A DNA stretch of 64,000 nt from Planctomycetaceae bacterium (lineage in GTDB: Bacteria > Planctomycetota > Planctomycetia > Planctomycetales > Planctomycetaceae), in contig JAKFUG010000014.1 of NCBI GenBank assembly GCA_021732785.1, positions 62,001 to 126,000 on the forward strand. Direction: 5' to 3'. Below are positions 20,393-22,283 of this stretch, one piece after another (position 1 is the stretch's first letter; each line of letters begins with the position of its first letter). The notes beneath the pieces were generated by a model. That model ran no database searches and was not told the DNA's origin. It saw only the letters and a list, made by a program, of their open reading frames with translations. Made by a program: the position numbers and the translations under genes.

Positions 20393-20396
<4 letters not shown>

Positions 20397-21385
20397 TGCC
20401 GACGGACGAGCCACCGCCGCAGATTTCGCCCAGACGTCGCCGAACCGTGCGATTGATGCTCGGCCTGATCAGTGTCGGTGTACTGCTGCATTTGACGGTT
20501 CGCGATGCGTGGGAATGGCCAACTTCCACGCTGTTTTATGCGCTGCCCCGCCCGCTGCTGGCGATTGCGAGTTTACTCGCCGCCGGATTGGCCCGACGAT
20601 TGTCGCAGCGCGAATTTGGGGTTTCCCTTTGTGTCGCGGCAATCCTGTGGGGTTGGGTCGGTTATCGAGACGTGCGCTGGACATCTCCTAAAGTTGTCTC
20701 ATCCGATGAGCGGCCCCTTCGGATCGTGCTGTGGAATGCAGCGCATCTGGCGCGCGGCCGCGCCGTTGTCGCCGCATCCCTCCAGAAATGGGACGCCGAT
20801 CTGATTGGCATCGTCGAAGCGGGGCCCACCGGCAAGCGCGATCTCGAAGACTGGAAACGCCTGCTGCCCGGCTATGAAATTGCATCCCCGCAGAGTCAAT
20901 CGTTGATCCTGGCGCGGGGAAAGATTGAACTGCACGACAAAGTGTCGCTCGGCGAAGACAGTGACGCGATGCCGGCCACGGTCACGCTCCATGAGCAAAC
21001 GTTCGACATTGTGTTGGTTGACCTGCTCAGCAATGTTCGTCTCAGTCGAGCAGCGCCATTACGCCAATTGGTCCGCACGTTGGATGACGCCCCGACGCGA
21101 CCGCAAATTGTGATGGGGGATTTCAACACGCCGCCGGAATCGGTTGGGTTCGATCCCCTTCGCCGTCAGTATCGAGACGCATTTGATGTGGCCGGTGTGG
21201 GATACCGTCCCACGTGGCCGTTTCCGGTCCCGTTGCTGAAGCTGGATTACGTCTGGGTTGGTTCCAATATCATTGTAGAACGATGCGAGCATCTGTGGAC
21301 GACCGCAAGCGACCACAAGCCGGTCATCGTCTCCGTCAGAATCGCTACAACCCCTACCGCATTACCAAATTCTCGCAACCCATAA
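20393..21385 (+). CDS. Membrane-associated endonuclease/exonuclease/phosphatase-fold protein
   Basis: The 330-residue protein overlaps the DUF1501 stop by 4 bp (ATGA), so it is translationally coupled. Residues about 20-90 hold two or three hydrophobic segments, and the remainder is an EEP domain: VLWNAAHLARG, ADLIGIVEAGP, VMGDFNTPPES and LKLDYVWVGSN with final SDHKPVIVSV. The Asn, Glu, D-x-N and SDH residues needed for the Mg-dependent phosphoesterase reaction are present. The family cleaves phosphodiesters in nucleic acids, phospholipids or inositol phosphates; with the membrane anchor a lipid or periplasmic substrate is possible. Topology was not computed. Confidence 0.85.
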
Positions 21386-21461: not shown

Positions 21462-22283
21462 GTGCCAAACCTACATCAAACCACGGGTCGTGCGCTGGAA
21501 CTGCTGACGAAAGGGCTGGCCCCTTTCTTCGAGCAGCAGATGCACGACGTCTTTCGCGACGACTGGGTGGATGTGGCCCGTGCCAGCTTCCGTCAGGATC
21601 GCGCCGTCAGCGTGCTCACGCAACTGCCGCTCGACGAGTGGGATGCGCAGGCGCTGTTGACCGTGATGTGGGATCAATGGAATGCCGTGTTTCGGCAGAA
21701 GCTCGGTTTGTTTGAGCGCAGCCTGGTCAGTGAACTGCGGGAATTCCGCAACCGCTGGGCTCACCAAAGTGAGTTAACCGACGACGACTGCTACCGCGTT
21801 CTGGATAGTGCGCAACGCTTGCTGCACGCCGTGAACGCTTCCGAAGAATTGCTCGTCGATCTCGACCGAATGAAGCTGGATGTTCTGAGAGAACGCCTGA
21901 ATCGACAGGTTTCCGACGATGTACGACGAGCCAAACAAAACCATGCCCGGTGGTTCGAAATCGCCGTCTACGCCTTTTGCGGCATGACGATTGTCGCGGC
22001 GTCATTGATCGTGCTGGCGAATCACAATCTGCTCTCGGCGTTGTTGATCAGCGGCTTTACGGTGGTCACGTTCCTGTACATTTCAATCGTTCGTTTGCGA
22101 ACGAACGAACCGATCCACGGCGTGCATGAGTGTCCGAAGTGCCGCAAGATCATCTACAACGAAGTCTGCCCGTATTGCGAAGCCCCGCCACCGTCGTCGT
22201 CGATTATTCGTCGTGGTTCCTCGACGATCTTGCCGCCGTTCAACGAAACGCCGCGGACTTTGGTCTCGCAACGCCGTGCCTAG
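21462..22283 (+). CDS. Swt1-like HEPN domain membrane protein with zinc ribbon
   Basis: The 273-residue protein begins with GRALELLTKGLAPFFEQQMHDVFRDDW, the Swt1-type HEPN pattern, and carries FRNRWAHQSELTDDDCYRVLDSAQRLL, whose R-N-x-W-A-H stretch matches the R-x4-6-H catalytic motif of HEPN RNases. Two transmembrane helices follow (about residues 165-215), then a zinc ribbon CPKCRKIIYNEVCPYC near residues 230-245. Swt1-like HEPN domains occur at the N-terminus of large ATPase or defence proteins; here the domain stands in a short membrane protein. The start is GTG 21462, set by the position of the HEPN motif. No antitoxin-like partner lies next to it. Function unknown. Confidence 0.75.
   Translation: MPNLHQTTGRALELLTKGLAPFFEQQMHDVFRDDWVDVARASFRQDRAVSVLTQLPLDEWDAQALLTVMWDQWNAVFRQKLGLFERSLVSELREFRNRWAHQSELTDDDCYRVLDSAQRLLHAVNASEELLVDLDRMKLDVLRERLNRQVSDDVRRAKQNHARWFEIAVYAFCGMTIVAASLIVLANHNLLSALLISGFTVVTFLYISIVRLRTNEPIHGVHECPKCRKIIYNEVCPYCEAPPPSSSIIRRGSSTILPPFNETPRTLVSQRRA

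Follow-up and report, generated by a model that had tools for sequence, protein, structure and literature searches.

What a HEPN domain of the Swt1 kind does in a short protein with two transmembrane (TM) helices and a zinc ribbon is the question raised by a gene of a Planctomycetaceae bacterium (GCA_021732785.1, contig JAKFUG010000014.1). The gene lies in a stretch of 64,000 nt (positions 62,001-126,000 of the contig, forward strand), referred to below as the window. Its features, together with the gene directly upstream, are as follows:

20393..21385, forward strand: Exo_endo_phos (EEP) protein, next to the HEPN gene on its upstream side and a neighbour at some loci (PF03372, E 1.7e-17)
21462..22283, forward strand: compact Swt1-HEPN / two-TM / zinc-ribbon coding sequence (ORF, 273 aa, GTG start)
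21489..21836, forward strand: HEPN_Swt1 domain, residues 10-125 (Pfam PF18731, E 4.4e-36)
21747..21764, forward strand: R96-N97-R98-W99-A100-H101, candidate RNase active-site motif (Rx4H; alignment conservation)
21960..22016, forward strand: first TM helix, residues 167-185 (hydropathy 2.36; terminus of AlphaFold2 helix 128-185)
22035..22091, forward strand: second TM helix, residues 192-210 (hydropathy 2.07; AlphaFold2 helix 190-213)
22131..22178, forward strand: zinc ribbon C224-x2-C227-x8-C236-x2-C239 (pattern common to compact homologues)

The protein belongs to the Swt1-like HEPN family by the curated cut-off of Pfam: profile PF18731 is matched end to end (positions 1-115 of 115) with 124.1 bits versus a cut-off of 27.5. 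The N-terminal Swt1-type HEPN domain, the R-N-x-W-A-H stretch, the two TM helices and the CxxC...CxxC ribbon, all described in the initial annotation from the letters of the DNA, are thereby or by the further features listed above confirmed as observations. The AAA+ ATPase region that follows the HEPN domain in HmaC/DUF499-type proteins is absent, the ORF stopping at 273 aa. A search against NCBIfam gives nothing above a cut-off for the 273-aa protein, and a PADLOC search of the same protein gives no family at E <= 1. The start column of the window protein coincides with the first Met in 66 of 101 aligned rows, whose starts had been picked by a script close to the expected place.

The combination of parts, which the initial annotation did not recognise, has been in print since 2013. 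Anantharaman et al. (PMC3710099) describe a group with an N-terminal HEPN domain, two TM helices and a C-terminal Zn ribbon, exemplified by Plim_2023 and by gi 325108440 of Planctomyces brasiliensis, and list it in their Table 1 as 'ZnR with two TMs (Plim_2023), active'. In that paper the group is predicted to be an active inner-membrane RNase for membrane-side RNA processing. Matched against this published description, the window protein has the same layout with its parts in identical order, the examples are likewise from planctomycetes, and no feature was found by which the two could be told apart. Within the literature searched, Plim_2023 is found only in the 2013 paper. What is new here is the distribution of the group, its separation as a single clade from HmaC-type proteins, and the findings that it can be missing where its neighbours are intact and that no partner gene is constant.

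Three known systems resemble the window protein in part. Swt1-HEPN-AAA+ ATPases (Ava_2192/DUF499 type; HmaC in PADLOC) have a homologous N-terminal HEPN domain, with an R....H motif of like kind in all five long proteins inspected in full, but the eight tested are 1047-1122 aa long and carry the HmaC ATPase region where the compact protein has TM helices and ribbon. Eukaryotic Swt1 has the HEPN fold in common, whereas its HEPN dyad is fused to a PIN domain, is described as inactive and is placed at the nuclear envelope (PMC3710099). The KEN domain of Ire1 and RNase L is also an RNase of the HEPN superfamily; it is kinase-linked, and the published analogy with it concerns membrane-side RNA decay (PMC3710099).

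An AlphaFold2 single-chain model (38 sequences; mean pLDDT 86.2, pTM 0.67) consists of a helical bundle, a long helix (residues 128-185) that connects the HEPN part with the first TM segment, and a second helix (190-213); the ribbon contains strand residues, and pLDDT falls below 50 at residues 246-267. The top row of a VIA-align comparison is the C-terminal domain of yeast Swt1 (4pqz; Z 8.6, rmsd 3.5, 125 residues), a Z value that helical models can reach without true kinship, and the rows for 2hsb (Z 6.4) and 5yjc (Z 5.3) are interspersed with unrelated helical ones. A Foldseek search against the PDB gives no match at E <= 0.001. The VIA-align score is not conclusive for a helical model and, like the missing Foldseek match, calls for caution about the reading developed below; the HEPN assignment is based on the Pfam profile. 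When solved chains are searched by sequence and by profile, the matches are weak only, the best being those of the ribbon to RNA polymerase subunit E'' (E 0.99) and Nop10 (E 0.4).

Conservation was assessed in an alignment of the window protein with 100 homologue loci (101 rows). Outside the window's genome there are 104 matching places, and all but four were used, the omitted ones being a partial match (G036), both pieces of the gene in G056 and the second piece in G051; the rows take in two HEPN-ATPase proteins of about 1095 aa (L168, L171) as well as one that is truncated by the end of its contig (L153). R96 and H101 are present in 101 of 101 rows each, and N97 in 100, so that a test set beforehand, for homologues lacking the R/H pair, finds none. 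The ribbon cysteines are nearly as constant among the rows with a residue at the respective position (C224, 96/99; C227, 96/99; C236, 96/97; C239, 96/99). The ribbon is found in 95 of the 97 fetched compact homologues, with a spacer of 8 in 95 of 95, and is absent from L169 and L152. At the level of the alignment, the conservation of motif and cysteines is far beyond chance.

The protein thus carries a conserved Rx4-6H motif, the sequence criterion for catalytically competent HEPN RNases, and is a predicted RNase on that basis. It could instead be a catalytically idle HEPN that binds RNA or protein as a membrane scaffold, similar to eukaryotic Swt1 with its HEPN described as inactive (PMC3710099). 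Many other residues are invariant too (D61, W73, F77, R86, E91, L92, R93, D115, R119 and L121), which indicates that the fold itself is under strong constraint. However, an idle site would need neither R nor H, and both are kept in homologues with as little as about 28% identity to the window protein; the authors of the 2013 paper also class the group as active (PMC3710099, Table 1). We regard an idle scaffold as decidedly improbable. In a literature search that covered mainly papers outside subscription journals, no test of RNase activity, nor any other experimental study, of a member of the group was found, which weighs on the side of caution for an active enzyme.

The membrane part is less uniform. 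With a simple and crude hydropathy threshold, both TM segments are detected in only 57 of the 97 compact homologues; 37 show a single segment and 3 show neither, a point against a membrane-anchored enzyme. In the 57 homologues with both segments above the threshold, K and R number 208 in the 15 residues before the segments, 18 in the loop and 106 in the 15 residues after, a pattern that fits an N-in/C-in arrangement with HEPN domain and ribbon on the cytoplasmic side. Drawing on the model and on this charge pattern, we predict that both domains face the cytoplasm and that one long helix joins the HEPN domain to the membrane. Within the first TM helix, in a segment that is otherwise variable, C173 (21978-21980) is conserved in 90 of 100 rows; a role in redox sensing, in lipid attachment or at a dimer contact is conceivable.

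The gene is widespread within the window's family, with a match in 100 of 150 genomes, 79 of 119 good-quality genomes and 44 of 58 genera. It is not indispensable, as a third of the family genomes have no copy; this absence is also a point against the resident role preferred below. A single match is found in 95 of the 100 genomes, and in the window's own genome the protein and the Pfam family each match once. The remaining five genomes have two matches each: two compact copies in G022, one compact and one long protein each in G064 and G096, pieces on two contigs in G051, and two pieces in G056. The compact copies of G022 (L130 and L152) lie on different contigs, and it is L152 that is without the ribbon. 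In G056 (G056:C2:90404-91092) the gene is split into two pieces that lie in different frames, and the matched part of either piece contains a stop, pointing to a decayed gene or an assembly error. A further family genome (G034) was the only one added by a profile search (E 7.7e-5), and was dropped because only the profile end matched and the DNA there has no HEPN match and a different membrane-type ORF.

Wider samples give the same picture. In an order sample 113 of 170 genomes match, all 113 belonging to the window's family. Of 392 genomes sampled across the phylum, 37 match, 24 from the family (24 of the 28 family genomes among those listed) and 13 from outside it; the latter have 14 places where nothing but the HEPN part matches, within frames of 420-1186 aa. 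A scan of genome contigs gives 41 loci, namely 37 compact ones, one cut at a contig end (L069) and three of the HEPN-ATPase type (L070-L072). The matches include Schlesneria, Thalassoglobus, Planctomicrobium, Planctomyces and many Planctomycetaceae MAGs, as well as a few odd ones, for example Kuenenia (L057) and Rhodopirellula (L045). As far as these sequence samples reach, the compact form is limited to the window's planctomycete family.

The nearest relatives found outside the family are the N-terminal HEPN domains of HmaC/DUF499-type ATPases, and the compact HEPN domain therefore probably derives from such a protein. Eight long HEPN proteins (L070-L072 and five from plasmids) were tested, and all eight match the HmaC family of PADLOC with 926-1155 bits from residues 161-169 onwards, that is, just past the HEPN domain. 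In a tree of the HEPN domain (77 compact and 23 ATPase rows, with 22 closely similar compact rows thinned by eye) one branch with an SH-aLRT of 97 parts compact from ATPase rows; rows L182-L195 were called ATPase from frame length without a profile, and L168 and L171 from length and a GGGKT stretch. The split takes one change on this tree, and two when a 24th ATPase row is kept (L195), since that row, with an end branch of 5.65, is placed among the compact ones. For 13 of the 18 genera with at least two rows, the rows fall on one side of a branch. Five genera (g1, g23, g42, g47 and g53) fail to group, g23 consisting of two copies of one genome; these five and the second change in the presence of L195 count against a simple history. 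Taken together, the sequences fit one origin and mostly vertical descent. We infer the root of the tree and the direction of change, from the ATPase form to the compact form.

In two loci of the genus g34 (L078, L079) genes for a DUF1501 protein and an EEP protein stand before the HEPN gene; in five other species (G034, G108, G117, G134 and G144; loci L174-L178) DUF1501 and EEP adjoin with no HEPN gene after them, the site in G144 (L175) being only partly visible as about 700 bp separate EEP from the end of the contig. A profile search of these five genomes detects no HEPN gene, the chance match in G034 aside. We infer a loss of the HEPN gene in the five species, not a late gain elsewhere. The HEPN gene is dispensable, and there is no sign of an antitoxin-like dependency.

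The genomic neighbourhood bears on the question whether the protein works with a partner. Towards the HEPN gene, the window has upstream a DUF1549/DUF1553 protein, a DUF1501 protein and the EEP protein, in this order; downstream follow an SGL-type protein on the other strand and a CMAS protein. The initial annotation reports no adjacent partner ATPase, and for these five neighbours this is borne out. The EEP protein has a hydrophobic N-terminal part, and no solved relative of it is found at E <= 0.01. When neighbour families are clustered over 101 loci, no constant neighbour emerges; the largest families are DUF1501 (24), DUF1553 (23) and EEP (13), of which DUF1501 and DUF1553 are mostly upstream. 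Constant linkage with a housekeeping operon, a second test set beforehand, is likewise not seen over these loci.

Where EEP adjoins the HEPN gene, it always lies upstream on the same strand, with gaps of 76-380 bp; this is so at 13 loci, in seven genera, out of 89 that have 1500 bp or more of upstream sequence. EEP proteins occur in 85 of the 150 family genomes, mostly apart from the HEPN gene. Omitting 11 genomes with a weak or partial EEP and counting G034 as without HEPN, 59 genomes have both genes, 41 HEPN only, 15 EEP only and 35 neither (Fisher p 0.001). If the full set of 85 EEP genomes is used, the counts become 63, 37, 22 and 28 (p 0.036). The p values ignore relatedness, and the co-occurrence is a weak association. 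On the HEPN tree, EEP adjacency takes 8 changes, compared with a mean of 12.3 and a lowest value of 8 in 300 shuffles. EEP was considered as a partner and set aside, being viewed as an old neighbourhood often broken up and not as a pair; a loose connection in function is the other reading.

The same data bear on a HEPN toxin of a toxin-antitoxin pair, for which EEP would be the candidate partner. HEPN domains are toxins of such pairs elsewhere (HEPN-MNT, from a reference title in PMC11090510), and EEP recurs upstream on the same strand. On the other hand, the 101 loci lack a constant adjacent antitoxin gene, 41 of the 100 HEPN genomes have no clear EEP match (37 when weak EEP matches count), five species have EEP without the HEPN gene, and the gaps between EEP and HEPN leave no overlap. 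A toxin-antitoxin pair is accordingly very improbable.

Defence remains to be weighed, as the initial annotation had proposed a defence or abortive-infection module besides a membrane-localised RNase. The protein would then be a solo HEPN RNase that acts at the membrane once infection triggers it, with death or stalling of the cell as the outcome. The kinship with HmaC-type ATPases speaks for such an effector, and so does the patchy absence inside one genus, also typical of defence genes. At the five plasmid places that were opened, the proteins are annotated 'Swt1 family HEPN' and have 1086-1122 aa; a DUF1156 gene is in view at four of them, and brxL further on at one, where a relative on a Meiothermus plasmid adjoins a helicase and a DUF1156 protein. 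This last place, on a plasmid of Meiothermus taiwanensis (L196, 5529-24444), shows a row of helicase, DUF1156 protein, Swt1-HEPN-HmaC ATPase and ATP-binding protein, continued by a vWA protein, a tubulin-like protein, a hypothetical protein and brxL, and hence a defence-like island around a homologous HEPN domain. The compact protein itself, however, has no PADLOC family, and five of seven window neighbours searched with PADLOC are without a match; an SGL-type protein has a weak one (PD-T4-6, E 4.7e-4), and in the CMAS protein it is the methyltransferase part that matches mad2 (E 4e-19). Phage records contain no match, viral contigs no confirmed relative in a scan reaching close relatives only, and of 45 matching plasmid records none covers 80% of the query. 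The gene is mostly in single copy and its descent is clustered by genus. A one-family clade, mostly single copies, no constant neighbour and absences beside intact neighbours together disfavour both a mobile defence gene and a toxin-antitoxin system, and we consider an anti-phage effector unlikely.

The reading that we prefer, with somewhat better than even confidence, is a chromosomal, mostly vertically inherited resident of the family: a cytoplasm-facing, active endoribonuclease of the Swt1-HEPN kind, anchored in the inner membrane. Of the two proposals of the initial annotation, the membrane-localised RNase is well supported as a prediction by the domain, the invariant R and H, the two TM helices and the ribbon, and the defence module is not favoured; its interpretation is in this sense partly supported.

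In other HEPN RNases, two HEPN domains pair. By analogy, two HEPN domains of the resident endoribonuclease would pair and bring their Rx4H motifs together into a single site that cuts RNA independently of metal. The ribbon may grip RNA or a ribosome- or translocon-bound transcript, or may sense zinc or redox state; stress or the ribbon would gate the RNase. The protein may then cut membrane-near RNA under some stress, as proposed for Ire1-like systems; what triggers it, what it cuts and what the ribbon contributes are guesses, which weakens the proposal. As to its origin, the HEPN domain would have been taken once, in the family ancestor, from an HmaC/DUF499-type defence ATPase, making the compact protein probably a domesticated form of a defence-type HEPN. 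The full sequence of events, in which a defence HEPN was freed from its ATPase once, gained a membrane anchor and a zinc ribbon and was kept for the stress decay of membrane-near transcripts, is a doubtful though conceivable extension of this reading. If true, it would give bacteria an equivalent of Ire1-dependent RNA decay, and this in a group noted for its unusual membranes.

HEPN RNases have mostly been studied as toxins and defence effectors. A membrane-anchored HEPN protein that most genomes of a family carry, with an invariant motif, is a candidate for a defence domain turned to normal cell physiology. Planctopirus limnophila, in which genome-wide transposon insertion has been performed (PMC10632474, whose main text mentions HEPN 0 times), would make the prediction testable.
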